A DNA stretch of 35,938 nucleotides, taken from positions 1 to 35,938 of the IMG/VR virus record IMGVR_UViG_3300044568_005034; one strand, given 5' to 3'. The translations under genes were made by a program, and so were the position numbers. The number at the start of each line of letters is the position of its first letter. Position 1 is the stretch's first letter. This document shows, piece after piece, positions 1 through 33,750 of this stretch. This DNA is from a virus. Under the pieces are notes generated by a model that searched no databases, was not told where the DNA came from, and saw only the letters and a program-made list of their open reading frames with translations.

Positions 1-345
1 TGTAACTGGTGTAGGTGTAACTGGTGTAGGTGTAACTGGTGTAGGTGTAACTGGTGTAGGTGTAACTGGTGTAGGTGTAACTGGTGTAGGTGTAACTGGC
101 GTAGGTGTAACTGGTGTAGGTGTAACTGGTGTAGGTGTAACTGGTGTAGGTGTAACTGGTGTAGGTGTAACTGGTGTAGGTGTAACTGGTGTAGGTGTAA
201 CTGGTGTAGGTGTTACTGGTGTAGGTGTTACTGGTGTAGGTGTTACTGGTGTAGGTGTTACTGGTGTAGGTGTTACTGGTGTAGGTGTTACTGGTGTAGG
301 TGTTACTGGTGTAGGTGTAACTGGTGTAGGTGTAACTGGTGTAGG
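1..345 (-). repeat. 15-bp minisatellite encoding (VTPTP)n
   Basis: Twenty-three contiguous 15-bp units start every 15 bases from 1 to 331 and continue beyond the left edge. Each encodes Val-Thr-Pro-Thr-Pro in frame in the giant minus-strand gene. Seven consecutive units (starting at 211 to 301) carry a T in place of A in the Val codon. This synonymous change is clustered, as expected if a variant unit was amplified by slippage or unequal recombination. The translated tract would be an extended Pro/Thr-rich stalk. Confidence 0.95.
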
Positions 346-3300
346 TGTAGGACTAGGAGTAGGTGTAGTTGGTCCAAATGTAGGTCCAATAACCGCAGGG
401 GTAAAAGAAACATAATCGAAATTATATGATTCAAAATCATAAAAATCACTAAAATTAAAAGCTGTTTTATTTGATTCACACAAATCTATATTTTCTTGAG
501 AAGCAGCACCATATGCTATGTGTGTCTCTATTACGCCATCTCCATATGGAGAAGAAGATATTTTAAATGCGTCATATTCTTCATCTGTCCCTACAAAGCA
601 TCCACATTCACAGTTTTTGTGATCAGCATATCCCCAAACATTCTTTACCACTGGAACAAATGTAGGGGTTGATGGCGTAACTGCTGGTGTCGCTACTGGA
701 GGAGGAAAACAGACGATTCCATCGTAAATCCTCAAGTATGCTATTCTTCCACCAGCATACTCTCTTGCAACTTGTGAATCATCCAAGAAGAAATTAAGTA
801 AATGTCCCGGATTATTGATGTTATCAAGGTTTAGTTGATCTGTATTAGATACAAACTGGAAAACACCATCTAATGCTACAGTTACTTCTTTTGTGCCATC
901 TTCAAGAACAAGGTTGCTCATTACAACAGTGTGAAAAACATTTGTTGTAAAAATTGTAACGCCATCAACAACAGGATATACTTGTAGTCTGTCATTAGGA
1001 CTTACATAGAATCCTTGATCTGAAATTCTATTTTGAGTGTCAATGATTCTGCGCCATCGTGCTGCTGATGTTGATGTAAATTCAAATATCATTTCAACAG
1101 AATAACTGTTATAGGTCAAAATTCCCGTTGTGTCTAAATAAAATCCACCTTGTTCGCTTGTAGGCGGATTACCACCAAACTTATAAACTGTTTGCGGCAC
1201 ACCGTTTACAACAGCTGATTCAAATCCGTTTTGGCTTAATGGATCTACAGCAACTAAGCTTGGTATGCCTAATTCTTCTGCATCTAAATTGCCATTAAAA
1301 AGATATGTTGCAACAACAGTCACATCACCACAATTAGAAGGTATTGGAGATGCAACAAAACCACTACTAATACCAGCTAATGTGGTTCTTGCTTGACTTA
1401 GATTTGCGCTTGTTTGGGCAGTAGTTATGTCTGTTGCGTATGTCAGCTTATCTGTTAATGCAGTAAAATTTCCGGTAGGATTTCCACCAGCAAAATATCC
1501 TTTTGTTGAATCTCCATCACATCCTGCTAACCCCCATCTTGCTTGGCTAAGATTTGCACTTGTTTGAGCTGTAGTCGTGTCTGTTGCATATGCTAATTTA
1601 TCTGCTGTTACAACAACTGAGCCAGAGTTTCCACCAGCAAAATAACCTTTGGTTGATCCTTCAGAAACTCCTACCAAATATTCTCTTGATTGGCTTAAGT
1701 TTGCTGTTGTTTGCGCAAAAGTTGCGTCTGTTGAATATGTTAATTTGTCTGCGGTTGCTACAGTTGAAGGAAGGGTAATATATCCGCCAGCGAAATATCC
1801 TTTTATTCCGTCACCAGAACATCCAGCCAAAACACGCCTTGCTTGGCTTAAATTTGCAGTTGTTTGAGCGTTACTTGTATCACTTGAATATGTTAATTTG
1901 TTTGCTGTTGTGACAACATTGCTAGCAAATCCACCAACAAAATAACCTTTAGTTGATCCTTCTGTAACACCAGCTAAACCCCATCTTGCTTGACTAAGAT
2001 TTGCACTTCCTTGAGCAACAGTTGTATCCGTTAAATATGTTAATTTATCTGCTTTTGCAATATCTATTTGATTATTTCCACCAGCGAAATATCCTTTGAT
2101 TGAATCTCCAGAACATCCTGCTAGTCCCCATCTTGCTTGGCTAAGATTTGCACTTGTTTGAGCAACAGTAGAATCAGTAGCAAATGTTAATTTATCTGTT
2201 GTTACGACATAAGATGCAATAGTATCCACTCCACCAGCAAAATATCCAGCTGTAGTAGGTGGAGATGGACTTGGAGCAGTATTATTACCAACTCCAGCCA
2301 AACTACTTCTTGCTTGACTTAGATTTGCAGTAGTTTGAGCAGCAGTTGTATCAGTTGCATATATTAGTTTATCTGCTGTTGCGAGATAACTTCCAGCTGC
2401 ACCAGCAAAATAACCTTTTGTAGATCCTTCAGAGATACCAGCTGGCGCACCTCCTGTTTGAGTTAAATTAGCACTTGTTTGTGCCGCAGTTGTGTCATTT
2501 GAATATGTTAATTTATCTGCTGTTGTGACACCGACTGATCCTATGCCTCCACCAGCAAAATAACCTTTTGTTCCTTCACCAGAACATCCAGCCATACTAT
2601 ATCTTGCTTGACTTAGATTAGCAGATGTTTGAGCAGCAGTTGTATCTGTTGAATATAATAATTTGTCTGCCGTTGCGACATCAATTAAGCCCGATGTGTA
2701 ACCACCAGCAAAATAACCTTTTGTTGAATCACCAGAACATCCAGCTACAAAATCTCTTGCTTGACTTAAATTTGCAGTAGTTTGAGCAACAGTTGTATCA
2801 GTTGAATATGTTAATTTGTATGCTGTTGCAAGAAAACCACCGTCCCAGCCTCCACCAGCAAAATAACCTTTTATTGAGCCTTCAGAAATACCAGCCAAAT
2901 TAGATGTTTCTACACTTAAATTTGCAGTAGTTTGAGCAGCAGTTGTATCATTAGAATATGTCAATTTATCTGCTGTTACATTATATGTGTTATCACTAAA
3001 TCCACCAGCGAAATATCCTTTAGTTGAACCTTCAGAACATCCAGCCAATCCAGCTCTTGCTTGACTTAGATTTGCGGTAGTTTTTGCAACAGTTGTATCT
3101 GTAGAATATGTTAATTTGTCCGCTGTTGCTAGTACCCCACCATTTGTTCCACCTGCAAAATAACCAGCTGTAGCAGTAGGTGTAGGGCTAGGTGTAGGAC
3201 TAGGTGTAGGACTAGGTGTAGTTGGTGTAGTTGGTGTAGTTGGTGTAGTTGGTGTAGTTGGTGTAGTTGGTGTAGTTGGTGTGGTTGGTGTAGTTGGTGT

Positions 3301-4344
3301 AGGACTAGGTGTACCACCGCTAACACCAGATAGAGCATTTCTTCCTTGACTTAGATTTGCGCTTGTTTGAGCAGCAGTTGTATCTGTTGCATATATTAAT
3401 TTATCTGCTGTTGCAACCTGACCTACACCTCCCTGACCACCAGCAAAATAACCCTTTGTTAATCCTTCAGAAGATCCAGCCAGAAGATATCTTGCTTGGC
3501 TTAAAATTGCACTTGTTTGAGAAACCGTTGTATCATTAGAATATGTTAATTTATCTGCTAAATTAGAACTAACAAAATATCCTTTTGTTGAATCTCCATC
3601 ACATCCTGCTAGTCCCCATCTTGCTTGGCTAAGATTTGCAGTTGTTTGAGCTGTAGTCGTATCTGTTGCATATGCTAATTTATCTGCTGTTGCAACAACA
3701 TTGGAACCGGAAGTATCTCCACCAGCAAAATAACCTTTTGTTCCTTCTCCAGAACAGCCAGCTAAACCATATCTTGCTTGGCTTAGATTTGCGCTTGTTT
3801 GTGCAGCAGTAGAATCAGTTGCATATGTTAATTTATCTGCTGTGGCGACAACATTAAAACCGGAAGTAGTTCCACCAGCAAAATAACCTTTTGTTAATCC
3901 TTCTGAAACACCTGCTAAACCACTTCTTGCTTGAGTTAGATCCGCACTTGTTTGAGCGGTTGTTATATCTGTTGAATATGTCAATTTATCTGCGGTTGCG
4001 ACAATGCTAAATCCAGCAGTATTTCCTCCAGCAAAATAACCTTTTGTTCCTTCTCCAGAACAGCCAGCAAATACAGATTTTGCTTGAGTTAAATTTGCGC
4101 TTGTTTGAGCAGCAGTTGTATCTGTCGAATATGTTAGTTTGTCTGTTGTTACCAAATAACCACTGTTATTAATTCCACCAGCAAAATAACCAGCTTCAAA
4201 TCCTTGTGGATCTAATGATAAAACTGAAAACGAATATTCTTCATAGTTATTTAACTGCATATTTTCAATAAATATTGGTGTAGATTCAGGAACATTAGCA
4301 CCTGAATCTATTTTGTCACTTTGTTGATCGTTATTATTATTCAT
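1..4344 (-). CDS. Giant adhesin/tail-fibre protein with three kelch propellers, LamG-like and CxCxC domains (3' end outside window)
   Basis: The frame opens at ATG 4344 and stays open to the window edge, giving at least 1448 codons. After about 50 N-terminal residues come 18 kelch-like blades of about 50 aa with the pattern GYFAGG, then [19 protein letters not shown] and LAGVS. They fall in three groups of six (about residues 51-345, 389-690 and 703-1000). A Pro/Thr linker separates groups 1 and 2, and a short APSPSP linker separates groups 2 and 3. A LamG/concanavalin-like region follows (about 1004-1210; [24 protein letters not shown]). Next is a Cys-rich domain (about 1233-1290, CECGC), then VTPTP pentads running off the edge. 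The gene starts 15 nt after the 2246-aa giant ends, so the two are probably co-transcribed. Kelch and LamG folds typically bind proteins or glycans, so receptor or surface binding is inferred. The presence of the gene is secure; the function is not. Confidence 0.85.
478..645 (-). other. CxCxC domain shared by the two giant proteins (copy 1)
   Basis: This is the counterpart of the segment at 5283-5455. The order of conserved elements is VW, HK-x-C-x-C-x-CFVGT, YD, PYG-x-GVI, YG-x-A, QENID and a C-terminal Cys. It lies between the LamG-like domain and the VTPTP stalk. Conservation is clearly stronger than in the surrounding linkers, so it is a discrete domain duplicated between the two fibre genes. 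Confidence 0.75.
3185..3310 (-). repeat. Pro/Thr linker repeat (9-bp PTT units) between kelch groups
   Basis: A 9-bp unit (gtagttggt on the plus strand) is repeated about nine times and flanked by gtaggactaggt units. In frame it encodes a PTT/PTP-type linker between the first and second six-blade kelch groups of the giant protein. The low complexity suggests a flexible or extended spacer and a site of length variation. Confidence 0.85.
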
Positions 4345-4359
4345 TTAAAATTCCCAAAT

Positions 4360-7300
4360 TTAGCTTGAAGGTCTAGCTGTTATTACGCCCCATTGGTATC
4401 TAGCAGAGAGAGTCATAGAACTCCAAGTAATTCCATCATAAGATACTGCTCCAATCAGAGGATTAGTTGTTGTAGGACCATACTTAGGAACAGCAACAAA
4501 CTTACCCTTAAAGTAAGTAATTGTAGTCCACAAAGCTACAGATGGTAAATTACCGCCTAAATTCCAAGTTTCTCCGTTATCATCTGAATATATTGTCGTG
4601 TTGGAAACTGATTCATTAATAGCAACAAATTTACCTTCTCCAAAGGTTGAATTCCACTGTCCAGTTGCTGGTATAGTTTTTTCCGTCCAATCTAAACCAT
4701 TTGTAGATATTGCACATTTATTTGTCCCATATCCAAATGCTATGAAATATCCATTTCCATAAGATATAGATGTGTAAGTTATGGATGATGGTAAATTTCC
4801 TTCATCCCATGTTTCTCCATCAAAACTCATAACAGATTTAGGTCCGTTGTTAGAAATTCCAACATATCTTCCATTACCATAAGCAGCATCAACTGTAATA
4901 AATGGTGCAGTTGTTATTGTGCCAGTTGTCCAATTTTCCAAATCTGTTGATTTTCTATAATTCTCTCCATTAAATATTATAAATTCTCCATCATTATGCA
5001 CAATTGCATCAGATTTGTCATAAGAAGTCAAACTAAGAGGATTAACAGTCCAATTTACGAAATCACCTGAATAACCAACATTAGTTCTTCCAGCAATAAC
5101 AAAAGCATCAAGACCATAAGTTGAAACTGGTTCTGCAATTTCTGGTGTATCAGGCACATTTTCCCAAGCAATACCATCGTAAGATATCATGGCTTTGCCT
5201 TCATTACCAGAGATACCCATTACTGCAACTATATCCGGGCTAGCTGTTGGCGTTTGTGATGGAGTTGGGTTAATGTTTTGATTGCAATCATCAATATTTT
5301 CTTGTGTTGCTTCACCATAAAATCTAAATGTTTGAATAACACCATTACCATATGGTGTTACATCTTCTCTGTAAGTGTCATAATCTTCTTGCGTACCAAC
5401 AAAACAATCACAGAAACATTCTTTGTGATTTATAAACGCCCATACATAACGATCTGCTGTCGGCGTTGCTGTTGGCGATGCTGTTGGCGATGCTGTTGGC
5501 GATGGTATTGGTGATGGCGTAGTTGGCGTAGTTGGCGTTGGAGTAGGACTTGGAACAGCATTATTGCTAACTCCCGCCAAGCCACTTCTTGTTTGACTTA
5601 AATTTGCGCTTGTTTGTGCTGCTGTGATATCGGTTGCAAACGTAATTTTGTCTGTTGTCGGTTGAAGAATAGATCCACCAGCAAAATAACCATTATTTGA
5701 ACCTTCAGAAACACCAGCTAAACTAGATCTTGCTTCACTTAGATTTGCGCTTGTTTGAGCAGTAGTTGTGTCAGTTGAATATATTAATTTGTATGCTGTT
5801 GCAACTGATGTGATAACAATTCCGCCAGCAAAATAACCTTTTGTTGAATTTCCATTACATCCTGCTAACTCATATGTTGCTTGACTAAGGTTTGCGCTTG
5901 TTTGAGCAGCGGTAGAATCAGTTGCAAATATCAGTTTATCTGTTGTTCCTACAAGATCTGAAGAAAATCCACCTGCAAAATATCCTTTGGTTAGTCTTTC
6001 AGAAATACCAGCCAAACCTAATCTTGCTTGACTTAGATTTGCTGTTGTTTGAGCAGTAGTTATGTCTGTTGAATATGTCAGTTTGTCTGTTGTTGCGGAA
6101 TAAGTAAAAAAAGTACTAGTGCTTCCACCAGCAAAATAACCTTTGGTTCCATTACCTGAACATCCTGCTAAATAACTTCTCGCTTGACTTAAATTTGCAC
6201 TTGCTTGAGTGATAGTCGTCTCTGTTGAATATGACAACTTGTTTGCTGTGGCAACAACTGAGCCAGAATCCCCACCAGCAAAATAACCTTTGATTGAATT
6301 TCCAGAAACTCCTGCTAAATAACCTTTGGCTTGAGTTAAATTAGCACTTGTTTGAGCAATGGTTATATCTGTGGAATATGTCAGCTTATCTGTTGTTACC
6401 AAATATGAACCATTGTCTCCACCAGCAAAATAACCAGCCGTAGCAGTTGGCGCAGTTGGCGTAGTTGGTGTAGTTGGCGTAGTTGGCGTAGTTGGTGTAG
6501 TTGGTGTAGGAGTAGGGGTAGGCGTAGGCGTAGGCGTAGGTGTAGGCGTAGGCGTAGGCGTAGGTGTAGGTGTAGGTGTAGGTGTAGGAGCAGCACCACC
6601 ACTAACGCCAGCTAAACCACTTCTTGCTTGACTTAGATTAGCACTTGTTTGAGCAACAGTTGTATCAGTTGAATATGACAACTTATCTGCTGTTGCTAAT
6701 ACAGCAGCACTAAATCCTCCAGCGAAATAACCTTTAGTTCCATTGCCTGAACATCCAGCTAAATTATATCTTGCTTGACTTAGATTGGCACTTGCTTGAG
6801 CAACAGTTGCATCTGTCGAATATGTCAATTTATCTGCTGTTGTCACAATCGCCGAAATATTAATTCCACCAGCAAAATAACCTTTTGTCGATCCTTCAGA
6901 AATACCAGTTAAACTATATCTTGCTTGACTTAGATTAGCACTTGTTTGAGCAGCAGTTATATCTGTAGAATACGTTAATATGTCTGCTGTTGCTAGTACA
7001 GCACCAGTGTATCCACCAACAAAATATCCTTTTGTTGATCCTTCCGAAACACTGGCTAAAGTACTTCTTGCTTGGCTTAGATTTGCCGTTGTTTGAGCTG
7101 TAGTTGTGTCTGTTGCATATGTTAGTTTGTCTGTTGTTAGTAAATAACCACTGTTATTAATTCCACCAGCAAAATAACCTTTTGTTCCTTCTCCAGAACA
7201 TCCTGCCAAACCGTTTCTTGCTTGGCTAAGGTTTGCGCTTGTTTGCGCCGCAGTTGTGTCTGTTGAGTATATCAGCTTATCTGCTGTTGAAAAATAAGAA

Positions 7301-10300
7301 ATACCAGCAGATCCACCAGCAAAATAACCCTTAGTTGAACCTTCAGAAACACCAGCTAAAACGCCTCTTGCTTGAGTTAAATTAGCACTTGTTTGTGCCG
7401 CAGTTGTATCATTAGAATATGTTAATTTATCTGCTGTCACAACATTTGCTGAATTATTAGCGCCACCAGCAAAATAACCAGCTATAGCAGGATTTGGAGT
7501 AGGACTAAATGTTAAACATCCATATTCCAAATCAGACCAATATTCAGAATTAGGAAGTGCTTGTTGATACCAAGTAATTCCATCTACAGAAACAATTGCT
7601 GTATCTGAATCTCTTGCAATTGCAATAAACCTGTCAACTGCGAACTTAACAGCAATCCAATCTTTATTTCCTGCTAATGCAACAGGAGTCCACGATACGC
7701 CATTTGTTGAGTAAAAAGCCTTAGAGTCAATAGATAGTCCTTTACGATCCAATGCAACAAATACGCCATTTCCGAAAGCAATGCATTGCATTCCATTGTT
7801 AACATTGCCAGTTGGAGTAACATCCCAGTTTACTCCATCTGTTGACCACATTGAATATCCAACTGGTCCAGTACCACTTAATGCTACATAAGTACCATTA
7901 CCGTAAGCAGTTCCGTAATATATAGGTCCAAATACATTGTATTGATCCCAGTTTATTCCATCTGGTGATGTAGCAATTACATCACCACCTAAAGCAATAA
8001 ATAAATCATTTACATAAGAAACTGACTGCCAATCTGACGAAGACGGCATATTGTTTTGTGTCCAATTTATGCCATCAGGAGAAATTGCATAAATATCTGT
8101 GGAAATGGCAACAGCAACAAATTTACCGTTGCCATAAGCAATAGAAAACCAATTTAATTCTGCTGGCAAATCATTGACTTCCCAATTTATGCCATCGCTA
8201 CCATATATTGATTTATCAGAACCAGCTGCTACAGCAACAAACTTATCATCTCCATGAGTTATAGATATCCAAGTATAAGATCCTGAAAGAGCGCCGTCAC
8301 GCCATGTGAAACCATCTGCACTTAATCCAATTTGATCTCCAAACGATATTGCTAAAAAGGCACATGAAGGATCAACAGGAGGAAATATTGGAGGAACAGG
8401 AGTTACTGGTGTAACGGGTGTAACAGGAGCTAAACATCCATGTTCTATGTCAGACCAATTTTCAGAATTTGGAAGAACCTCATCTGTCCAAGTAATTCCA
8501 TCAATAGAAACAATTGCTGCATCTGAATCTTTCGCAATCCCAACAAATCTGCTGTTGGCAAATTTAACGCTAATCCAGTCTTTATTTCCTGTTAAAGCAA
8601 CACCAGTCCACGATACGCCATCTGTTGAGTAAAAAGCCTTAGAGTCAATAGATAGTCCTTTACGATCTAATGCAACAAATACGCCTTTTCCAAAAGCAAT
8701 ACATTGAACTCCATTATCACTACCACTAATTAAAGTCCCACTCCAATTTATTCCATCTTCTGATGTAATTGCATATCCATTGGAGTTTCCGCTTAATGCA
8801 ACGTAAGTTCCATTGCCGTAAGCAGTTCCATAATAAGCTACTTCACTTCCGCCTGTCAAATTATATTCATTCCAGCTTATTCCATCTGCTGATGTAGCGA
8901 TTACATCGCCACCCAAAGCGACAAACAAGTTATTGATGTAGGAAACTGATTGCCAATATGCTGAAGATGATATGCTGCGTTGAGTCCAATTTATCGCATC
9001 AGGAGAAGTAGCATAAATATCTGTGTTGTAAGCAATAGCGACAAACTTACTATTGCCATAAGCGATAGAATACCAATTTAAACTTGCTGGTAAATCATTA
9101 ATATACCAATTGACACCATCAGCACTGTAAATTGATTTATTGGAACCAACTGCTACAGCAACAAACTTATCGTCTCCATAAGTCAAAGATATCCAATCAT
9201 AAGATCCTGAAACAGTTTCATCAGTCCATGTAGAACCATCTGTGCTTATTGCTATTTGATTTCCATAAGATATTGCTAAAAAATCACATGAAGGTGGATT
9301 TGTTACGCAACCATATGTAATAGCATTCCAATTAGAACTGACAGGAAGCGTGTGTTCACTCCAAATTAAGCCATCATATGACACAGCAATAGTGTCACCA
9401 CTTGCAACAAAAGCTACAAACTTGTTATCGCTAAATATAACTTTATGCCAAGAACTATTGGATGGCATGTCTCCTTCTGTCCATGTGGTTCCGTTTGTTG
9501 AATGAACAAATTTAGGTCCACTTCCCACAATGATAAATTTATTATTTCCAAATGCTATGTCTTTTGTACCGCTTTGGAAATAAGATGATGAAATTGATGA
9601 ATAATTCCAAACTGTTCCATTGGTTGATGAAACACTTTTAGATGATGCTGAAGAAGCATATCCATCTATTGTGACGTATTTCCCATTACCATAAACAGTG
9701 TTTTGCCCAAATGGTAGTAAACCTCTGCCACCAATAGAAACTTCTGTCCAAGATGTTGCATCTTCTGATATTGCAACTTTATCCATTGACAATGCAATAA
9801 ATTTATTATTTACATAAGAAATTGAAAACCAAGTAGAGCTTGACGGCATTGTCCGTAAAGTCCAAGTTTCTCCATCATTTGAAGTGAAATAATCATCTGT
9901 TCCATAGGAAATTGCTAAATAATTACCAAATGAGCCATAAACGACTTTAAGTAATCCTGATATTGTGGGATCGTTACTATCAATCCAACTTGTACCATTA
10001 AAACTATAAATTGCCTTAGAACCACCAACAGCGACATACTTGTTATTGCCGAAAGTAACTCCAAACATTGATTGTGGAGCAATTTCTGTTGTACCATCTG
10101 CCCATGTAACACCATCTTGAGAAGCAACAGACACATAGTCGCCAATTGCAACAAAATTACAATCAAGTGCTGGTGGTGATGTTATGCATCCATAAACAAT
10201 GTCTTTATATCCAAAGTCATTAGGAAGAGTGTTTTCTGTCCAGTTTATTCCGTCTGAAGATAAAGATATGGTATCATTTGATAGTATTGTGAATGTGTTA

Positions 10301-11100
10301 TCACCAAAAACGATTCTATTCCAAGCTTTAGCTGATACCAAATCAGCTTCTATCCAGATTTGACCGTCATCAGAATAAATGACTTTGTCACTGTTGTTGC
10401 CGATTGCAACAAATACTCCGTTTCCAAATGCTACATCTTTTAACCCATCTGGGAATGAAGAAGTTGTAATGTTGGAAGCATTCCATGTAGAAGCATCTGT
10501 TGACCAAACGCTTTTAAATCCACCATCCATTGTTACATAATAACCATTACCATAAACAACAGATGCGTTGTAAGTTAGTATTGTTATGCCACTTAACGTA
10601 ATTTCATTCCATGTTTCAGCATCAGTTGACGTGAGTATTTTGTTTGTTCCAAGAACAATAAATAAATCATTTACATAATTAATGGAATCCCAATACTCAA
10701 CCGATGGCAAATTGCCAACATTAGAACCAGCCCAAGAAACACCATCAACAGATGTTGCATAGTAACTGCTATCATATGAAACAAGTACGAATTTGTTATT
10801 ACCGTAGGCAATTGAAGACCAAGTAACAGAAGTAATGTATGGTAAGTCGCTAAATGTCCAATTAATTCCATCAATTGATTGAATTGCTGAATATTGTGAA
10901 ATATTTATAGCTACATATCTGTTATCGCCAAAAGTTACACAATCTCCACCTATTGGCATGGTTCCAGCTGTCCAAGATGATCCATCTTCAGAAAACTGGG
11001 AATATAAATCTGATACTGCTACAAATCCACAAGATGGAGGAGCAACTGGCGTGAGACTTAAAATATGCTCTTTATTTTTGCCTTGAAATTTATCTGTCAT
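4360..11100 (-). CDS. Giant multi-propeller adhesin/tail-fibre protein (2246 aa)
   Basis: Asp-box motifs (SxDGxxW, with a following YGNxxFVA strand) occur in four blocks of seven: about residues 24-304, 314-600, 608-893 and 908-1197. Two six-blade kelch-like groups follow (GYFAGG; about 1206-1500 and 1554-1847), each followed by a Pro/Thr linker. A CFCDC-containing domain lies at about 1882-1940, and a fifth seven-motif Asp-box block runs from about 1955 to the end. The first four Asp-box blocks begin with C-x-F-[VL]-A and end with [YH]GC, suggesting Cys-closed propellers. No signal peptide, enzyme motif or transmembrane segment is seen. ATG overlaps the stop of the PKD gene by one base (TAATG), so translation is probably coupled. 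Asp-box repeats are known from sialidase-type and Ycf48-like propellers; nothing here shows sialidase catalysis. A structural adhesin role is inferred from the baseplate neighbourhood. Confidence 0.9.
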   Translation of the reverse strand: MTDKFQGKNKEHILSLTPVAPPSCGFVAVSDLYSQFSEDGSSWTAGTMPIGGDCVTFGDNRYVAINISQYSAIQSIDGINWTFSDLPYITSVTWSSIAYGNNKFVLVSYDSSYYATSVDGVSWAGSNVGNLPSVEYWDSINYVNDLFIVLGTNKILTSTDAETWNEITLSGITILTYNASVVYGNGYYVTMDGGFKSVWSTDASTWNASNITTSSFPDGLKDVAFGNGVFVAIGNNSDKVIYSDDGQIWIEADLVSAKAWNRIVFGDNTFTILSNDTISLSSDGINWTENTLPNDFGYKDIVYGCITSPPALDCNFVAIGDYVSVASQDGVTWADGTTEIAPQSMFGVTFGNNKYVAVGGSKAIYSFNGTSWIDSNDPTISGLLKVVYGSFGNYLAISYGTDDYFTSNDGETWTLRTMPSSSTWFSISYVNNKFIALSMDKVAISEDATSWTEVSIGGRGLLPFGQNTVYGNGKYVTIDGYASSASSKSVSSTNGTVWNYSSISSSYFQSGTKDIAFGNNKFIIVGSGPKFVHSTNGTTWTEGDMPSNSSWHKVIFSDNKFVAFVASGDTIAVSYDGLIWSEHTLPVSSNWNAITYGCVTNPPSCDFLAISYGNQIAISTDGSTWTDETVSGSYDWISLTYGDDKFVAVAVGSNKSIYSADGVNWYINDLPASLNWYSIAYGNSKFVAIAYNTDIYATSPDAINWTQRSISSSAYWQSVSYINNLFVALGGDVIATSADGISWNEYNLTGGSEVAYYGTAYGNGTYVALSGNSNGYAITSEDGINWSGTLISGSDNGVQCIAFGKGVFVALDRKGLSIDSKAFYSTDGVSWTGVALTGNKDWISVKFANSRFVGIAKDSDAAIVSIDGITWTDEVLPNSENWSDIEHGCLAPVTPVTPVTPVPPIFPPVDPSCAFLAISFGDQIGLSADGFTWRDGALSGSYTWISITHGDDKFVAVAAGSDKSIYGSDGINWEVNDLPAELNWFSIAYGNGKFVAVAISTDIYAISPDGINWTQNNMPSSSDWQSVSYVNDLFIALGGDVIATSPDGINWDQYNVFGPIYYGTAYGNGTYVALSGTGPVGYSMWSTDGVNWDVTPTGNVNNGMQCIAFGNGVFVALDRKGLSIDSKAFYSTNGVSWTPVALAGNKDWIAVKFAVDRFIAIARDSDTAIVSVDGITWYQQALPNSEYWSDLEYGCLTFSPTPNPAIAGYFAGGANNSANVVTADKLTYSNDTTAAQTSANLTQARGVLAGVSEGSTKGYFAGGSAGISYFSTADKLIYSTDTTAAQTSANLSQARNGLAGCSGEGTKGYFAGGINNSGYLLTTDKLTYATDTTTAQTTANLSQARSTLASVSEGSTKGYFVGGYTGAVLATADILTYSTDITAAQTSANLSQARYSLTGISEGSTKGYFAGGINISAIVTTADKLTYSTDATVAQASANLSQARYNLAGCSGNGTKGYFAGGFSAAVLATADKLSYSTDTTVAQTSANLSQARSGLAGVSGGAAPTPTPTPTPTPTPTPTPTPTPTPTPTPTPTTPTTPTTPTTPTTPTAPTATAGYFAGGDNGSYLVTTDKLTYSTDITIAQTSANLTQAKGYLAGVSGNSIKGYFAGGDSGSVVATANKLSYSTETTITQASANLSQARSYLAGCSGNGTKGYFAGGSTSTFFTYSATTDKLTYSTDITTAQTTANLSQARLGLAGISERLTKGYFAGGFSSDLVGTTDKLIFATDSTAAQTSANLSQATYELAGCNGNSTKGYFAGGIVITSVATAYKLIYSTDTTTAQTSANLSEARSSLAGVSEGSNNGYFAGGSILQPTTDKITFATDITAAQTSANLSQTRSGLAGVSNNAVPSPTPTPTTPTTPSPIPSPTASPTASPTATPTADRYVWAFINHKECFCDCFVGTQEDYDTYREDVTPYGNGVIQTFRFYGEATQENIDDCNQNINPTPSQTPTASPDIVAVMGISGNEGKAMISYDGIAWENVPDTPEIAEPVSTYGLDAFVIAGRTNVGYSGDFVNWTVNPLSLTSYDKSDAIVHNDGEFIIFNGENYRKSTDLENWTTGTITTAPFITVDAAYGNGRYVGISNNGPKSVMSFDGETWDEGNLPSSITYTSISYGNGYFIAFGYGTNKCAISTNGLDWTEKTIPATGQWNSTFGEGKFVAINESVSNTTIYSDDNGETWNLGGNLPSVALWTTITYFKGKFVAVPKYGPTTTNPLIGAVSYDGITWSSMTLSARYQWGVITARPSS
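5283..5455 (-). other. CxCxC domain shared by the two giant proteins (copy 2)
   Basis: This segment encodes about 58 residues with VWAFINHKEC, then FCDCFVGT, PYGNGVIQT, YGEATQENID and a final Cys. It matches the segment at about 478-645 in the neighbouring giant gene ([37 protein letters not shown]). In both proteins it sits between Pro/Thr-rich linkers. I do not recognise the family. The clustered Cys plus a preceding His could bind a metal or form disulfides. Confidence 0.75.
6436..6597 (-). repeat. Pro/Thr linker repeat (TPT and PTP units) between kelch groups
   Basis: Two adjacent low-complexity arrays are present: 9-bp gtagttggc/t units near 6440-6505 and 6-bp gtaggc/t units near 6505-6590. 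They encode an alternating Pro-Thr run followed by PTT units. This linker joins the two six-blade kelch groups of the 2246-aa protein. Confidence 0.85.
7500..9300 (-). repeat. Recent tandem duplication of a seven-blade Asp-box module (offset 918 bp)
   Basis: Asp-box modules 3 and 4 of the 2246-aa protein are close copies. A 45-base stretch ending in the TTTACGATC block is identical at about 7705-7749 and 8623-8667, exactly 918 bp (306 codons) apart. Flanking segments differ only by scattered substitutions. The whole module was therefore duplicated in frame. Confidence 0.8.
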
Positions 11101-12119
11101 TATAACACCTTTACTGGATTTGAAACTATAATTTTATTTACTTGATTGCCTCTTAGTGTTATTAACAAAGTTGGCATATATGTTCCTGCTCTTTGGTATT
11201 TATGGGTTGTGTAGTGTATATTTGGGTTAACTTGTCTTTGGTTACCACCATCTTCAAATACCCAAAATCTTTCTACTATGTCTCCACCAGACTGATCTAT
11301 CAAGTTAAAACTTGTTGCTTCAATTCCCATTTTGTTCGCAGTCTGAACAGAATATCCAACGCTAGGTGTAGCATAAACAAATAAATTTGGTATTTCGTTT
11401 GATGCTGTTATATATCCTTTTTTAACAACAAGTCCTTGTGCTCCCAAGTTTGTTACAATTCTCAACTTAACATCAAAGCTTCCTTCACTGGAATAAGTAT
11501 GGGTTGGGTTTCTTTCTAGGCTAGTTCCACCATCTCCGAAGTCCCAAAAAAACTTATTTGCAATTACATTGCTAAAATTTTGAAATTTTACAGTTAAAGG
11601 AGAAGGACCATTTAGAGGATATGCTCTAAATAATGGCTTTGGTGCTAAAAGCTTTATTTCTTGTTGTTTGAGAATGTTGTTTAAGGAGCCACTGGCTGGA
11701 AGATCTGCTGTACCTAAAGTATTTTCAATTTTTATAACAGCATCTTTAATGCTGTTGTGATGGTCTGCAAAAACTCCACCAATAATTTGCGCTCCAACGT
11801 CCCAATTAGTTTGTCTTGATCCAGCAAACCCACGAACCAAATTACTAAATGTTTGATTGGTTCTTTTCTCGTAATAAACATATTCTGGAAAAGTAGCATA
11901 TTTTTCAGGCAAATTAATTCTTAAAACGCCTTTGTCTGAAAAGTTTTCTGCATTTTCGACAATAATTAAATCTGACCCGTAATTCAATGCTTGAGTTAAA
12001 TTTGTTTCGCTATTATTTTTAGCAAAATAAAGCGTATCATAGTTATCAATAGCTTCTGGAAATACTGATAGATCACCAGCCAGATATCCCAAATCATAAC
12101 TACTTAGTTTACTGACCAT
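11100..12119 (-). CDS. PKD-domain baseplate/fibre-associated protein (339 aa)
   Basis: Residues 1-160 form an unrecognised N-terminal region with YLAGDLSVFPEAID, LVRGFAGS and a GGVFADHHN segment. A PKD domain follows at about 162-240 (FWDFGDGGTS, then HTYSSEGSFDVKL). A second, degenerate PKD-like domain lies at about 245-339 (FWVFEDGG, then HKYQRAGTYMPTL). PKD domains are Ig-like extracellular binding or spacer modules. The gene lies between baseplate genes and the giant fibres, so a connector between baseplate and fibre is plausible. The start overlaps the upstream coiled-coil gene by 11 bases. An AGGAG directly abuts the ATG, which is too close to be ideal; an AAAGG about 11 nt upstream may serve instead. 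Confidence 0.85.
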   Translation of the reverse strand: MVSKLSSYDLGYLAGDLSVFPEAIDNYDTLYFAKNNSETNLTQALNYGSDLIIVENAENFSDKGVLRINLPEKYATFPEYVYYEKRTNQTFSNLVRGFAGSRQTNWDVGAQIIGGVFADHHNSIKDAVIKIENTLGTADLPASGSLNNILKQQEIKLLAPKPLFRAYPLNGPSPLTVKFQNFSNVIANKFFWDFGDGGTSLERNPTHTYSSEGSFDVKLRIVTNLGAQGLVVKKGYITASNEIPNLFVYATPSVGYSVQTANKMGIEATSFNLIDQSGGDIVERFWVFEDGGNQRQVNPNIHYTTHKYQRAGTYMPTLLITLRGNQVNKIIVSNPVKVL

Positions 12120-12708: not shown

Positions 12709-12725
12709 ATATTAATGTAGTAATG

Positions 12726-13511: not shown

Positions 13512-13531
13512 AGTAACATATTTAGTCTAAA

Positions 13532-14002
13532 TCAAAGTAAATTTACTCTCCAATTCCAAACAATTTGAATATCAGATGTTTTTGATAGAGGAGAAAATGT
13601 TGCCATTGAGTATAAAATGTCATTGTTTAGCACTAAAGCCATTTCAGAAATATTATAACCATTTGCATCATCAAAACTTAGAACAGATGTAAAAACGACT
13701 TGTGTAGCGTTTGTTGAGTCAATATTGGTAACAACTGGCTTGTTTGCTCTAGTCAAACCAAAAAGACCTGTTCTATCTGCATCTACATATCTTGTGGTAG
13801 TTCCATCAGTTCCACCATCACCAAAAATCATTCTAGAGACAAACTGATTGTAAATGCCATCAATTTTGTTGGCAAGAACTTTAACTAATTCAGATCTACC
13901 ACCAATAAGAACAGCATTGCTGAAATCAATGTTACTTTCTTCGCCATTCTTATTGATGATTTTTCCTGTCACATGACCAATACATTTTGATAAATCGTTC
14001 AT
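13532..14002 (-). CDS. Small tail-fibre/baseplate structural protein (156 aa)
   Basis: The protein is beta-rich, with SRMIFGDGGTDG at about residues 56-67, then VDADRTGLFG and a C-terminal IQIVWNWRVNLL. This resembles small structural proteins next to the gpI-like gene in many myoviruses, in which a GDGG segment is followed by a Thr-rich loop. The ATG overlaps the stop of the 1031-aa gene by four bases (ATGA), consistent with coupled translation. No membrane segment or catalytic motif is visible. The identity is tentative: a minor baseplate or fibre-attachment protein. Confidence 0.75.
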   Translation of the reverse strand: MNDLSKCIGHVTGKIINKNGEESNIDFSNAVLIGGRSELVKVLANKIDGIYNQFVSRMIFGDGGTDGTTTRYVDADRTGLFGLTRANKPVVTNIDSTNATQVVFTSVLSFDDANGYNISEMALVLNNDILYSMATFSPLSKTSDIQIVWNWRVNLL

Positions 14003-17000
14003 ATTTTCCCTTCGATTTTCTTACTGTCTCTAGTTAAAATAGTATAACCAATACTTTCTTCTTGAATCGAAACAGACTTGGGTCCATTAGCAAAATCAGC
14101 TAACGCAAATGGAGAAGAATTAGCAGTTTGATACGTTATCAAGTTATTACTAGACCTGTCAATATAATCAAAACTATTTCCCAAAATTGTTGTAGAATTT
14201 TCAATATACTGAATTAATTCGTAATTGACAGAGCTTCCACCACTTGAAATTGTTCCCCAATCCTCAAACCTTCCTGAAATATAAAGATAATCAGTTGAAC
14301 TTATATTTACCTCTGAAATAATCGAATAAAAATAATTTGAATTTATTTTTATTAAATAATTTTCTTTAAAAGTGCTGTTGCGAATTGCATTAGGATTGTT
14401 TGGATCAGTAAATGTTGGAAAAGTTAATGGCTTTGCTAACAACATTTTATTATAATTAACATTTCCAACATTGTATGTTAATCTTTTTAATATTTTACCG
14501 CTTATTCCCACTTGATCTCCACTGACGTATCCATCAATATAGAATTCATCAGTTTCAGTTGGATATTGATCTATGTAATATTGATTGGAAGTAGAATCAA
14601 TGTAAAAATAATTATTTCCTTGCAGAAGTTCTTGTATATTAGTAACTCCTGTACCGGGATCTACAACTACTCTGCCACGATTTAAAACATCATAAATTCC
14701 AGTCGTTGACTCAAAAATTATATTATTATTTTCGTCCAACAATTTATAGTTTAATCCGCCAACTGGCATATTGCTTAATGTTCCATTATTGGCAATAGTT
14801 AATTTATTATTTACGACATTGCTAATATTATAAATAAAACCAGTTAAAACGATTTCAACTTTCCATGCAGCAAGAGCATTGCCGTTGTTTACGTCATGTA
14901 CAGTCTTTATCGGATAATACAAGTAATCAAAAGATTCATCGATAATGCTGTAAGTGTTATCTTCATAAACATTGAAATTAGTGTCCGCAATAATTATGTT
15001 TGATAATATAAATGTAAATTCAGTTATGTTTAATGGTTCTGAAAAACTTTCAATCACTTCAACAATGTTGTTTGTAGGATTTTCAACTGTGTAATTACCA
15101 CTGTTTATGTGCGGTGACAAAATTTGTAAAAATGTTTTTGCCGGATTAACATTAATCCCCAATGATTGTAAATTTTGGGAAGAACAAAAAAGAACAATGT
15201 TTTTATTAAATGCCATTGTTGTGCCAGATTCAATGCTACTGGAATTTGCTAAAGAATTTCTAAGCACAGGATTATACAGATCAGATCCCGGAATAATATT
15301 TCTGTTAAATACATTACTTATTTCTCCAGAAATCAAAAATTCAGCACCATTATACCTTATAAGTATTTCCCAACTTTCATTTGCAGGAAGCATGTAATCC
15401 TGCATAAATCCATTAAATTGCAAAGTATGTAATATTGCATGAAAAGGAATATAGTCTGCAATAATTTCCTGCGCTTCAGTTAATCTAATGTTGGACAAAT
15501 CTTGTATAGTAAGCTCAGCGTTGAACCTAGAACTTATCGTGTTCCTACAAGGCTCTACAAAATCTTTATCAATGTTTTTAGGGTCAAAACTGTCTCTTAA
15601 AGAACCATTGTATTCATCCATATTATATGCTTGTTCTGAATAAGGAAATTCAGTTCTAACCTTGCCAAATATTATTGGATCATAAAACGGATTCTTAACA
15701 TTGATAATAATATCAAATAATGGGTCGCTTTCCTCAATTACATGTGTATTCCAATCTTTTTTTGGATACTTAACATATCTTTCATCTCTCGTGTCAGCTA
15801 ATGGCAGCGATAATATATAACCATGTAGTTGAATCTCTTCATTGTCAGGCAATTTTTTTATCTGATATGTTATCTTTAAATGAGACCCAATTCCTAACGG
15901 ATTTCCAATATATTTCATATATGATTTGCCGTTAGAAGTGTAAATTGTGATATTGCTTAAATCTAATGTTTCATAATTATCAATAACAATAGAATTTCCA
16001 TTTATAGAAGACTTCGCTACTTGAAAAGAAAAATAAATATCATTTTTATCTAAACTTACTTTTTCTAGTTGAAAAATATTATCATTTAGATAAACAAAAC
16101 TTTCTGTAAAAGTATATTTGGTTCCCACTTGCCATAGTTGTGAAAATTTATCAAGTTCAATTCCAGCATCATTCAGAGCTTCTTTTAAAGCCCTTATTGT
16201 TCCTTTAGATTTATTAAGAGGAACAGCTTTTTTAATTTGTTTTCGCCATCTGGTTGGGTCAGAACTTCTTAGTCTCAAATTAAATAAATTAGCTAGATAT
16301 ATTAACAAAGGCTCTTGTAAAACATTAGCATCAAGAAGATCAATGATTTGATTGACCAAATCTTCCATGTTTTTAAAACCAATGTTAATCGATTGGTTTA
16401 GTTTGTCTAAAATTTCGGGCGTTCTGTCATCACTTGAATATGTTGTTTTGTACATTTCTGGCAAATAACGAGTCAATAAATCATAATATTTATTTTCAGG
16501 AGTTCTGTGACTTGGATTGCTTGTATACGCTGCAATATCACTTAAAAGATAAAATCCCAAGTGTGCGCTTAAAACGTCTCCAGAAGGGTTTGGCTTCCAT
16601 TTGTAACAAATAAAATAGTCACCTTCTCTTACTCCCAAAGCATCCCAATAAAAAGAAAATCTACAATATGGAAATTCATTATTTGGAGCACTCTGAACAG
16701 GAGAATCTGTATTAGGTTGACCTCTTACCCATAAAGGATTAGTTGCATTTCCTCGTTGGTAAACAATAATAGAATTTTGATAATAAAAAGGACTTGTAAC
16801 AATAGTTGTTTGCCAATCGTTCAAAGCATCATTAGCTATCTTGATATTTTCTTCCGAAGGATTATTACAAGCAATATTTTTAAAATACAAATATTTTTCT
16901 TCAAGATTTTCCTGAGAAACTTGATTATCATATTCTTGCATATTTGTAGAAGCATAACTGCGTTCTATAAAATATATTGTTATGTTTTCTATGTAATAAG

Positions 17001-17094
17001 GATCTTCAAAGTAACATTTATTAGAATCTGGAGTTAAGAATACAAACTCGACTCTATCGTTAACTTTTGGATTATCTGTATATAATTTATTCAT
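13999..17094 (-). CDS. Large baseplate protein with P2 gpI-like domain (1031 aa)
   Basis: Residues about 205-320 carry a P2 tail protein I-type domain: LTRYLPEMYK, a helical stretch LVNQIIDLLD, LLIYLANLFNLRLRSSDP, then a basic helix and NKSKGTIRALKEALNDAG. In the family this domain belongs to wedge proteins next to baseplate J. The N-terminal 200 residues are an extra domain and the C-terminal ~700 residues are beta-rich and unrecognised. The protein is much longer than P2 gpI (about 180 aa) and is nearer in size to T4 gp7, a wedge protein, which it may replace functionally. It follows the gp6-like gene with an 8-base overlap, the expected J-I gene order. The domain call is good; equivalence to gp7 is inference. 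Confidence 0.85.
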   Translation of the reverse strand: MNKLYTDNPKVNDRVEFVFLTPDSNKCYFEDPYYIENITIYFIERSYASTNMQEYDNQVSQENLEEKYLYFKNIACNNPSEENIKIANDALNDWQTTIVTSPFYYQNSIIVYQRGNATNPLWVRGQPNTDSPVQSAPNNEFPYCRFSFYWDALGVREGDYFICYKWKPNPSGDVLSAHLGFYLLSDIAAYTSNPSHRTPENKYYDLLTRYLPEMYKTTYSSDDRTPEILDKLNQSINIGFKNMEDLVNQIIDLLDANVLQEPLLIYLANLFNLRLRSSDPTRWRKQIKKAVPLNKSKGTIRALKEALNDAGIELDKFSQLWQVGTKYTFTESFVYLNDNIFQLEKVSLDKNDIYFSFQVAKSSINGNSIVIDNYETLDLSNITIYTSNGKSYMKYIGNPLGIGSHLKITYQIKKLPDNEEIQLHGYILSLPLADTRDERYVKYPKKDWNTHVIEESDPLFDIIINVKNPFYDPIIFGKVRTEFPYSEQAYNMDEYNGSLRDSFDPKNIDKDFVEPCRNTISSRFNAELTIQDLSNIRLTEAQEIIADYIPFHAILHTLQFNGFMQDYMLPANESWEILIRYNGAEFLISGEISNVFNRNIIPGSDLYNPVLRNSLANSSSIESGTTMAFNKNIVLFCSSQNLQSLGINVNPAKTFLQILSPHINSGNYTVENPTNNIVEVIESFSEPLNITEFTFILSNIIIADTNFNVYEDNTYSIIDESFDYLYYPIKTVHDVNNGNALAAWKVEIVLTGFIYNISNVVNNKLTIANNGTLSNMPVGGLNYKLLDENNNIIFESTTGIYDVLNRGRVVVDPGTGVTNIQELLQGNNYFYIDSTSNQYYIDQYPTETDEFYIDGYVSGDQVGISGKILKRLTYNVGNVNYNKMLLAKPLTFPTFTDPNNPNAIRNSTFKENYLIKINSNYFYSIISEVNISSTDYLYISGRFEDWGTISSGGSSVNYELIQYIENSTTILGNSFDYIDRSSNNLITYQTANSSPFALADFANGPKSVSIQEESIGYTILTRDSKKIEGKI

Positions 17095-18652
17095 AGGTAA
17101 AACTTATTGCTATACTTTCTGGTCTAATAATCTCAAAATACCTTGCGTTTACAGTTTTTCCACTGTTGTCAGGATCGCTTGTTGTGAAATAAATATCATA
17201 TCTGCTTGGTTGTTGCATATCTGAAAGAGCTTTGATAACATCAATGTCTCTTAAATTCTGTTCATAATCCCAATTATTTACTGAAAAGAAACTTTCAATT
17301 CTTGAAGTTATATTAGTTTTTATTTCATCTTCAAACTTTTTATAATATTTATCCATTACCACATTAACAGAAATGTTAGTTAAAATGATTTCGCCATCAA
17401 GAATGCTAAGATAATCAGTCATCATTTTGTTAGCATTTATGTGTTGCATAAACTCATATTTAAATTGACTGGATGATTTTTCTAGATCTAAATTGTTTAC
17501 TTTTGTTAAAACATAAAGTTCAACAATGTTGGAACTACACCCAGAATGTCTCAATACAGCATTTGCTTTACCCATCACTCCATTATAAGGTGTTGCAAAT
17601 AAATTGGCATAATTTTTGTAATCACTGCCAGAAACACATCTATTTTGAGATTGATTGTAAATTGGAAGTTTATATCTAATATCATCAATCGTTTCGCCAG
17701 CATATCCATGCTCTCCTTTAGTGTAATTTGTCAAATTGACAACCGCACTGTAAACTTCACCTGAAATTGGTATTAAAGTTTGGGTATTTACGAAGTTGCT
17801 GACAATGTTACCTGATGGTCCACCACCTATTCTGTAAACAATTTGTATTGTAGATCCAGCAGATGGAATGTATCCTGCTCTATTGTTACCAAATATAATA
17901 TAAACTGAATAATCAGAATTATATTCAATTCTATATTCTCTTCTAGGAGATGATTCAGTAAAATATTTGACTTGATCCCACTTTGTGCCATCAACGCTTA
18001 CACGAATGGAATCAAGCAAGACTGGACTGTAAGTTAACAAATATGCCTGATCAGTTCCACCTACAGCACCAAAAGCATCACTATAAGTTCTACCTTCTAA
18101 TCCAACAATATTACTATTGATCAATGTTCCATTGTTTATGTAAATGTTTTCATCGTAAATAGGTCTATTTAACGAATCAGAAGGAAACAATTCTATTGTT
18201 GTGGTAACATTGTTATTTAATATGTCAACTGGATATGGTGTTGGTATTTCTAAATCAACATTGTAAGTCGTTTGCACTCTTGCAGACCAAAGGCTTTTAC
18301 CAGCAATTGGCGGTTGAGGTTCATAACCAACAAGCTTTGCTAATCTCAAAGCATTTTCTAGTTCTGTAACCGTATCAATAAATACTTCATTGGCTATTTG
18401 ATCTGTCTTAAATGAAAGAGTGTCTGCAATAAATGCCCAATTTTCAATAAGCATAATACCAAGACTTGACTCAACAAAATCATTAAACTCAGCGCCAAAT
18501 TTTTCTTTAATATAAGCCACCAAACGAGACTTCATTGACCAAAAATCTTGATTAGTATAATTTAAGGAAAATATTTGAGGTCTTGTGTTATTAGCACCAA
18601 GTTTGTATGGCTTTAAATCAAACGGACATTTTTCCAAATCAGCCCCCTTCAA
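17087..18652 (-). CDS. Baseplate wedge protein, baseplate J/gp6-like (521 aa)
   Basis: This looks like a baseplate J family protein. The N-terminal helical region has FVESSLGIMLIENWAFIADT and a TELENALRLAKLVGYEPQPP segment typical of the family, where the particle-facing domain is followed by VSVDGTKWDQV and VYIIFGNNRAGYIPSAG (about 215-275). The core continues with VYRIGGGPSGNIV and later RCVSGSDYKNYANLFATPYN, a hallmark-type stretch of gp6/gpJ proteins. Family members form the wedge ring around the hub. The gene lies directly after gp25, as in P2 and T4-type clusters. Its start overlaps the end of the gp25-like gene by 14 bases. Confidence 0.9.
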   Translation of the reverse strand: MKGADLEKCPFDLKPYKLGANNTRPQIFSLNYTNQDFWSMKSRLVAYIKEKFGAEFNDFVESSLGIMLIENWAFIADTLSFKTDQIANEVFIDTVTELENALRLAKLVGYEPQPPIAGKSLWSARVQTTYNVDLEIPTPYPVDILNNNVTTTIELFPSDSLNRPIYDENIYINNGTLINSNIVGLEGRTYSDAFGAVGGTDQAYLLTYSPVLLDSIRVSVDGTKWDQVKYFTESSPRREYRIEYNSDYSVYIIFGNNRAGYIPSAGSTIQIVYRIGGGPSGNIVSNFVNTQTLIPISGEVYSAVVNLTNYTKGEHGYAGETIDDIRYKLPIYNQSQNRCVSGSDYKNYANLFATPYNGVMGKANAVLRHSGCSSNIVELYVLTKVNNLDLEKSSSQFKYEFMQHINANKMMTDYLSILDGEIILTNISVNVVMDKYYKKFEDEIKTNITSRIESFFSVNNWDYEQNLRDIDVIKALSDMQQPSRYDIYFTTSDPDNSGKTVNARYFEIIRPESIAISFTYE

Positions 18653-19055
18653 ATGGTATTGCTAAAATTAAATTTTCAACAACATTGATTTGCTCTGGAT
18701 TTATATAGTTAATTTTTACCAAGACTCCATTCTGATTTGTATAAGTTCCTTCCTCTTTATCACTTTCAGATAAATTAGCGACAACAATCGACTTAACAGT
18801 AATTCTTGGTTCCCATGTAGCAATTGCATTCGTAATCGCTTCAGTTATAGCTGATCTTGTTACCTCGTTATTAGGCTCGTAAAAAAATTTACGCAAAGGT
18901 GTGCCAAATTGAGACAACATGACTCTATCACCGGGATTAGTCAAAATTAACTGGATTAAATCACTTTTAATATTTCTTGGTCCTAATTGAGTGTAAAAAA
19001 ATCCTAAAGGATTTTTTGACACCGGAAACGGAAGACCTTTTAACACAATTGCCAT
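18639..19055 (-). CDS. gp25: Baseplate wedge protein gp25/GPW-like (138 aa)
   Basis: The sequence matches the gp25/GPW family: a short N-terminus (LKGLPFPVSKNPLGFF), then IKSDLIQLILTNPGDRVMLSQFG at about residues 31-53, PLRKFFYEPN, and a helical ITEAITNAIATWEPRITV. Family members are about 120-140 aa and interact with gpJ/gp6 in the wedge. The frame is open further upstream to an ATG at 19124, but I chose ATG 19055. It has AGGAG upstream at good spacing, it avoids overlap with the needle gene that ends at 19078, and it restores the usual family length and N-terminus. Confidence 0.92.
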   Translation of the reverse strand: MAIVLKGLPFPVSKNPLGFFYTQLGPRNIKSDLIQLILTNPGDRVMLSQFGTPLRKFFYEPNNEVTRSAITEAITNAIATWEPRITVKSIVVANLSESDKEEGTYTNQNGVLVKINYINPEQINVVENLILAIPFEGG

Positions 19056-19077
19056 TAAAACTCCTAAATAATTATTT

Positions 19078-33021: not shown

Positions 33022-33022
33022 A

Positions 33023-33061: not shown

Positions 33062-33063
33062 GC

Positions 33064-33707: not shown

Positions 33708-33750
33708 GTTTTAACTAAATAATTATAGACAATTTATTTATTGAGGTATT

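Follow-up and report, generated by a model that had tools for sequence, protein, structure and literature searches.

According to the part of PMC4901313 considered here, beta-propellers occur in the receptor-binding proteins of phages phi11, PRD1 (P2) and PhiKZ (gp131C). The PhiKZ gp131C protein, from a Pseudomonas myophage (PDB 4GBF), is described there as a seven-bladed propeller at the baseplate periphery that is suspected of binding the receptor, while Gp45 of Staphylococcus phage phi11 carries a propeller thought to recognise the host, the ring of which is closed by pairing of its terminal strands. Gp45 differs from the protein reported below in having five blades and one propeller per chain, in a trimer with a helical stem; for gp131C one propeller is described, versus seven of two kinds here, and the likeness is one of description only (PhiKZ gp131 was absent among the structure matches listed, which is uninformative either way). 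The large myophage vB_PcaM_CBB encodes proteins annotated as kelch-type propellers (CBB_550, CBB_552 and CBB_554), CBB_552 being present in virions; this annotation comes from InterPro only, and tandem or Asp-box rings go unmentioned in the part of PMC5259590 considered.

The phrog_19111 family, a 443-position profile that carries no function, matched the kelch blocks of our protein P0001 (E 5e-76) and of P0002 (1e-104) and left the Asp-box-like part unmatched. A related kelch repeat, 36-39% identical, was found in Synechococcus phage S-SKS1 (HQ633071, L134). Over a 6.8-kb stretch of that phage, 3, 5, 8 and 9 repeats were detected in four short ORFs, and no Asp-like blades; the ORFs lie beside a sulfotransferase gene, and their arrays are broken or open, with counts not divisible by six. 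Several propellers per chain are present in the ectodomains of eukaryotic LRP2, LRP4 and LRP6, which were among the top Foldseek matches of our three-ring model with an overall rmsd of about 16-31 A and therefore provide an analogy only. The LRP rings are of the YWTD type and are accompanied by EGF modules. No multi-propeller phage protein was named in the titles or abstract openings of the open-licence phage propeller/kelch literature, and prior publication is possible. Propellers in phage adhesins being already known, the new part of this report is the number, the mixture and the whole-ring turnover of the propellers.

The stretch of DNA that we analysed (the window) comprises the 35,938 bases of an IMG/VR virus record. 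Its poly-propeller gene encodes a protein, P0001, which, judging from its motifs and from structure models, very probably contains seven closed propeller blocks with 7-7-7-7-6-6-7 blades (Table 1). The domain order is A7-A7-A7-A7-K6-K6-Cys domain-A7, where A denotes an Asp-box-like and K a kelch block. The original prediction had described alternating propeller types in a protein made almost wholly of propellers; the actual order is grouped (A-A-A-A-K-K-A) and a Cys-rich domain at about residues 1884-1945 had been missed. Pro/Thr stalks between some of the propellers, also proposed there, were borne out at residues 1503-1553 and 1851-1883 (the latter Pro/Thr/Ser). No N-terminal anchoring domain was seen in P0001, in which 23 residues precede the first ring; either terminus might serve for attachment to the tail. 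The Cys-rich domain, predicted with middling confidence to fold as beta-beta-alpha-beta-alpha, is recognisable by its HKECFCDCFVG motif in three genes, at different points in the domain order; when the phage collection was searched for it (E up to 0.1), no match was found. The whole gene was also present in the IMG/VR contig L008 (100% identity); contig L010 corresponded to its first 5341 bases (100%), and L011, L012 and L013 to 2363, 1500 and 1297 bases of it (99.96-100%).

Table 1. Location of the poly-propeller gene, its domains and the neighbouring genes in the window (one domain copy lies in the relative L014)
Feature	Coordinates	Strand	Remarks
Poly-propeller gene (P0001)	4360..11100	minus	2246 aa; ATG at 11100, stop 4360-4362
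Asp-box-like block 1	10186..11031	minus	residues 24-305, 7 blades; fold by homology
Asp-box-like block 2	9307..10161	minus	residues 314-598, 7 blades; fold by homology
Asp-box-like block 3	8434..9288	minus	residues 605-889, 7 blades; AF2 model
Pro/Thr/Val linker	8365..8433	minus	residues 890-912
Asp-box-like block 4	7516..8364	minus	residues 913-1195, 7 blades; AF2 model
Kelch block 1	6595..7485	minus	residues 1206-1502, 6 blades; AF2 and solved kelch match
Pro/Thr stalk	6442..6594	minus	residues 1503-1553
Kelch block 2	5551..6441	minus	residues 1554-1850, 6 blades; fold by homology
Pro/Thr/Ser stalk	5452..5550	minus	residues 1851-1883
Small Cys-rich domain	5266..5451	minus	residues 1884-1945
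Asp-box-like block 5 (C-terminal)	4363..5235	minus	residues 1956-2246, 7 blades; AF2 model
Neighbour gene, open at window end	1..4344	minus	kelch 6+6+6, further domain, Cys-rich domain, TPTPV repeats
Neighbour kelch block	3310..4197	minus	6 blades
Neighbour kelch block	2275..3171	minus	6 blades
Neighbour kelch block	1354..2253	minus	6 blades
Cys-rich domain, second window copy	451-642	minus	
Cys-rich domain, copy in L014	about 9918-10133		
PKD-domain protein	11100..12119	minus	339 aa; weak baseplate-wedge profile match
Baseplate cluster	13999..21273	minus	
I-like gene	13999-17094	minus	
J/gp6-like gene	17087-18652	minus	
Baseplate wedge subunit gene	18639-19124	minus	presumably W/gp25-like
V-like gene	19078-21273	minus	OB spike domain

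The strict motif S.D[GA]..W was found in 26 copies in P0001 and the form [ST].[DNE][GAF]..W in 32, the motif starts falling into five blocks (residues 37-281, 327-574, 619-865, 927-1171 and 1973-2220). Seven blades were counted in each of these blocks by motif position and blade HMM, so the seven SxDGxxW motifs predicted for the four N-terminal blocks and the C-terminal block hold when degenerate blades are included. GYFAGG occurred in 11 exact copies and once as GYFVGG, six at 1208-1457 and six at 1556-1804, which agrees, this one variant included, with the six predicted for each of the two kelch groups; GYF[AV]GG was present in all 12 kelch blades with a within-block spacing of 49-52, as in the typical kelch repeat, which is some 50 residues long and has hydrophobics plus Gly-Gly in strand B. 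When P0001 was residue-shuffled 200 times, [ST].[DN][GA]..W was found 0.3 times on average (maximum 3), versus 31 in the real protein, and GYF[AV]GG 0 versus 12 times. The blade HMMs were derived from the window proteins themselves, so their E-values are not independent.

The textbook Asp box is SxDxGx[TS]W and lies between strands 3 and 4. This 8-residue form was found in one of the 35 blades (SDDNGETW at 2172); most of the others had an SxDGxxW-like motif, one residue shorter, at the same place, and for this reason the blocks are named Asp-box-like. P0001 had no match to BNR/sialidase families in Pfam (E up to 1) or NCBIfam (E up to 0.1), so it is not classed as a member of BNR, and none to the curated kelch families of Pfam or NCBIfam. 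A weak kelch sequence match to KLHL12 was obtained with phmmer (E 0.0033 and 0.0036), and profile A2 gave no match against the PDB at 0.01. Matches to Pfam INV_N, which at E 0.00025 did not reach its cut-off, to Pfam EPTP and, on the Pro/Thr stalk, to internalin K and AaBglC were all dismissed as sub-threshold or low-complexity.

Two segments were folded with AF2, namely residues 605-1505 (blocks 3, 4 and kelch 1; 901 residues), with an alignment of 27 rows made up of the query, L009, L014, L015 and kelch rows, and residues 1862-2246 (Cys domain and block 5), with 27 Asp-like rows including the query; single or double Asp-like blocks were left out of the multi-ring alignments, in which MAFFT had placed them on kelch rings or made them span two rings. 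The mean pLDDT was 83.2 for the first segment, with a pTM of 0.42, indicating that the domains were well predicted and their mutual placement was not, and 82.7 for the second. Blocks 3, 4 and 5 had a strand pattern of 3 + 6x4 + 1 (one inner strand of block 5 being only two residues long), which corresponds to seven blades provided that the final strand completes the blade begun by the initial three.

The whole ring of the kelch 1 model matched SAKe6BE (Z 41.1, rmsd 1.7, 279 of 281 residues) and KEAP1 (1zgk; Z 39.8). The block 5 model matched virginiamycin B lyase, a seven-bladed propeller (Z 26.0, rmsd 2.5, 258 residues), the 7-bladed designer protein v31WRAP-T (Z 24.6, rmsd 2.7, 270 residues) and the Photorhabdus lectins PLL/PHL (Z about 22-23); Foldseek ranked kelch chains on top for this block, with a poorer fit (rmsd about 5-9 A). 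The structure matches listed for blocks 3 and 4 were kelch and tandem-propeller LRP chains, so that the ring assignment of these blocks depends on the strand pattern. A propeller fold is proposed for blocks 1 and 2 and for kelch 2 by homology to the folded blocks (40% and 37% identity to block 3, and 66% of kelch 2 to kelch 1). The four of seven blocks that were folded thus gave models consistent with the closed seven- and six-bladed propellers of the original prediction, with no open solenoid or other count among them: the strand patterns fit 7, 7 and 7, and kelch 1 and block 5 match solved closed propellers.

The block boundaries pointed in the same direction. Asp-like blocks 1-4 start mid-repeat at a strand C-x-F-[VL]-A and end mid-repeat at [WY]..[IL]x[YH]GC, while block 5 starts at D-I-V-A and ends at QWGVITA; when the end and the start of a block are joined, they give the hairpin type (YGNxKFVAV) found within full repeats, which is how a blade built jointly from the first and last strands should look. 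In the kelch blocks, which open on strand B (GYFAGG) and close behind strand A (LAGVS), the phase is likewise that of a shared blade.

A pair of cysteines marks the seam in blocks 1 to 4 of P0001 (Cys24/Cys305, Cys314/Cys598, Cys605/Cys889 and Cys913/Cys1195) and in the same four blocks of L009, and also in L014's first block; both ends are free of cysteine in block 5 of P0001 and in L014's second block. Among the full Asp-like blocks of P0001, L009 and L014, cysteines were thus present at both ends in 9 of 11, at neither in 2 and at one end in 0, the 11 blocks not being independent cases because P0001 and L009 are 88% identical. The corresponding numbers for 66 seven-blade groups of relatives, among the matches listed, were 2 (both ends), 62 (neither) and 2 (one end), in a tally that missed the Cys-paired block of L014 and, of the four in L008, picked up two. 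Both double-Cys groups belong to L008, which is nearly identical to the window. By this tally the seam pair is not general in the wider family. Outside the cell, the paired cysteines would staple rings 1-4 shut through a disulfide.

Relatives were collected in IMG/VR scans that gave 8 loci, the best 80 of 513 confirmed loci (Asp-type), 31 loci and 4 loci, many of them overlapping, so that those of the Asp type are a sample of the best matches. The 185 proteins with at least three blade hits were reduced to 108 at 70% non-redundancy and to 97 after removal of 11 cut at the locus end; groups touching cut ends and one-hit groups were left out of the counts, which are rough in the relatives because the HMM iterated on them misses several blades of P0001. 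At a gap limit of 12 and among the matches listed, seven blades were present in 67 of 111 Asp-like groups (14 in another 2) and six in 45 of 66 kelch groups (12 or 18 in another 4).

The 56 one-block Asp-like proteins, again among the matches listed, had 7 blades in 42 cases, 14 in 2, 8 in 7, 6 in 4 and 3 in 1. All seven proteins with a count of 8 had a partial hit of 14-26 residues at both ends, consistent with a ring of seven blades whose seam lies elsewhere. The 16 one-block kelch proteins listed had 6 (11 cases), 18 (one), and 2, 5, 8 and 34 (one each), the 34 repeats dividing into five sixes and four. In the multi-block proteins, the listed Asp-like groups had 7 blades in 24 of 39 (21 in one, other numbers in 14) and the listed kelch groups 6 in 26 of 30 (12 in two, 5 in two). 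The rule is broken by two kelch proteins (L112 with 8 and L120 with 5), by the S-SKS1 ORFs with 8 and 9 kelch repeats and by the four one-block Asp-like proteins with 6; some of the odd counts will be missed blades. By these HMM counts, 7 for Asp-like and 6 for kelch rings dominate among the 97 relatives listed, and exceptions exist. L132 and L133, from a Patescibacteria MAG (JAOZKL01), were the only kelch relatives from the one genome scan; one of them has six repeats, and they could be phage contigs within the Patescibacteria bin. Limnohabitans phage DC31 (XLZ15464.1) is a distant relative that has been cultured.

A single propeller (rounded) was found in 70 of the 97 proteins among the matches listed, the largest number of rings among these being that of L008 (5 Asp-like, 2 kelch). 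Both kinds of propeller were combined in 2 of 108 proteins (L008 and L014), and also in L009, which had been dropped as redundant. The L009 protein, 88% identical to P0001, lacks kelch 2 entirely and proceeds from kelch 1 through the stalk to the Cys domain. L014 and L015 (45-50% identical) have the order A7-stalk-A7-Cys domain-stalk, after which L014 has a K6 and L015 ends at the contig edge. L104 has five kelch sixes in a 2956-residue frame and L118 (5133-11975) encodes a kelch protein of 2281 residues with about six six-blade blocks; the repeats of the latter are of a different sequence style (GYFGGG, DGIQF). Across these relatives the blade number per ring has mostly been held while the number and order of the rings changed.

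The distribution of amino acid changes between the window and L009 was analysed for residues up to 1503, starting in the Asp-like blocks from the second blade; loop limits were judged by eye with the help of motifs and DSSP, and Fisher tests were applied with codons taken as independent. In the Asp-like blades, the 2-3 and 4-1 loops had changes in 68 of 356 codons versus 60 of 625 elsewhere (p 3e-5) and versus 25 of 241 in the 1-2 loop and Asp box (p 0.004); separately, the numbers were 23/97 for the 2-3 loop, 45/259 for the 4-1 loop, 6/73 for the 1-2 loop, 19/168 for the Asp box, 8/120 for strand 2 and 9/96 for strand 3. In the kelch blades, the BC and DA loops had 13 changes in 75 codons versus 10 of 220 elsewhere (p 9e-4) and versus 1 of 52 in AB and CD (p 0.008), the signal lying in BC (12/45) with DA nearly unchanged (1/30). 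According to the parts of PMC4668279 and PMC6650413 considered, the substrate face of a kelch domain is made up of its BC and DA loops.

Across the 30 kelch blades of both window genes, mean column entropy was 2.65 bits for BC and 1.62 for DA (2.95 and 2.85 in its last two positions), versus 0.67 for CD, 1.38 for AB and 0.18 for strand B. The Asp-like blades gave 2.85 bits for the 4-1 loop, 2.66 for the 2-3 loop, 2.08 for the 1-2 loop and 1.41 for the Asp box; strand 3, at 2.76 bits, is level with the 2-3 and 4-1 loops, which makes the contrast between faces weaker across the protein's own Asp-like blades. Loops might also change for lack of constraint, and the argument for a variable face is based on the contrast between the faces: substitutions relative to the closest relative evidently fall more on the face of the 2-3 and 4-1 loops.

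The comparison with L009 also separated the gene from its surroundings. Identity of the backbone was 75-83% in 15 of 16 500-base bins and 69% in one, versus 84-92% across the 9 bins of the poly-propeller gene, and the switch lay near the gene boundary (megablast: 80.8% for 11086-14676, 88.6% for 6563-11078). At four-fold sites the gene was 21.4% divergent (of 718) and six neighbours 43.3-53.8%, in a test of two relatives and seven genes in which one neighbour had only 22-23 such sites. With about half the synonymous divergence of its neighbours, the gene was evidently exchanged by recombination. Versus L014, the backbone of which is similarly distant, the protein was 50% identical over 1045 residues and the neighbours 73-86%. 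By these divergences, in two relatives only, the gene was exchanged in one pair and has diverged fast in the other; it has evidently moved between phages separately from its baseplate neighbours.

Besides the baseplate cluster, the genes upstream of the poly-propeller gene on its strand include three unknown genes and the PKD gene, the stop of which shares base 11100 with the poly-propeller start codon. In P2-type phages, the fibre genes come after gene I. The poly-propeller gene occupies such a fibre slot, behind the co-oriented V-, J- and I-like genes and the wedge gene, and this position supports the putative fibre identity of the original prediction. Among phage records, LR756511.1, an uncultured 595-kb phage, came closest to the J/gp6-like gene (42%) and was the only record matched by the PKD gene (39%, with E values up to 1e-5). 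In the same slot (17327-21349 of L131, positions 536000-566000 of LR756511.1) this phage has ORFs of 663 and 674 residues that are related to the PKD gene at their N-termini; the 30 kb examined gave no propeller hits. On its other side, the poly-propeller gene is followed by the neighbour gene 1-4344, with a further domain that looks laminin-G-like by eye and a long TPTPV repeat reaching past the window end. No tRNA genes were found in the window, which has a tRNA nucleotidyltransferase-like gene (27441-28832, minus) and a methyltransferase-like gene (32410-34695, plus).

We consider P0001 to be probably an adhesin, a long tail fibre of modular build by which a phage with a contractile tail binds its host multivalently, a prediction for which the variable face and the movement of the gene between related viruses speak together, since they fit a swappable tool for gripping host cells. 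Stalks and tandem rings would also give a long chain that serves only to extend the reach of a fibre or to decorate it, with another protein binding the host; the neighbouring gene could carry the tip, and phage CBB, which encodes kelch-domain proteins, has hair-like tail appendages to which the part of PMC5259590 considered assigns no known function. Such a passive spacer would need neither changes concentrated on one face nor gene exchange against a diverged backbone, and we regard it as unlikely. Somewhat less probable still is an adhesin whose target is not the infection receptor but particles, mucus or extracellular polysaccharide, and which holds the phage where hosts are: many discs could provide broad, weak binding and the model of block 5 resembles propeller lectins in fold, whereas the tail-fibre slot favours a role in adsorption, while being compatible with this reading too.

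Sialidases are among the Asp-box propellers, and a weak profile match to an exo-alpha-sialidase chain was obtained (E 0.073, 30 profile positions), so that a glycan-cutting enzyme (sialidase or depolymerase) built on these propellers was considered. The sialidase motif has the form [FY]RIP; no motif of this type was present in P0001 and no enzyme family was matched at curated cut-off in Pfam or NCBIfam. The sialidase reading was rejected for want of a supporting motif or family, and an enzyme of either kind is very improbable.

In the host-binding fibre that we favour, each disc would keep one constant face and present one variable face, and several weak contacts with glycans or proteins of the host surface would sum to firm binding. 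The second gene would add three more discs, and host range would change by swapping loops, discs or the whole gene. More tentatively, it is possible that the lineage recognises its hosts with a combinatorial array of at least 10 closed propellers from two adjacent genes, with two unrelated folds that each have a constant and a variable face, some rings being stapled by a pair of cysteines at the seam, and that this array evolves by gain, loss and exchange of rings.

Known phage adhesin propellers come one per chain in the part of the comparison literature considered (PMC4901313), versus seven here. This phage group was met here only as metagenome contigs. Its proteins form a natural set for studying how multivalent recognition evolves and what fixes the blade number, and the family is a source of ready-made rings. 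Given its exchange between diverged phages, the poly-propeller gene is a candidate determinant of host range.
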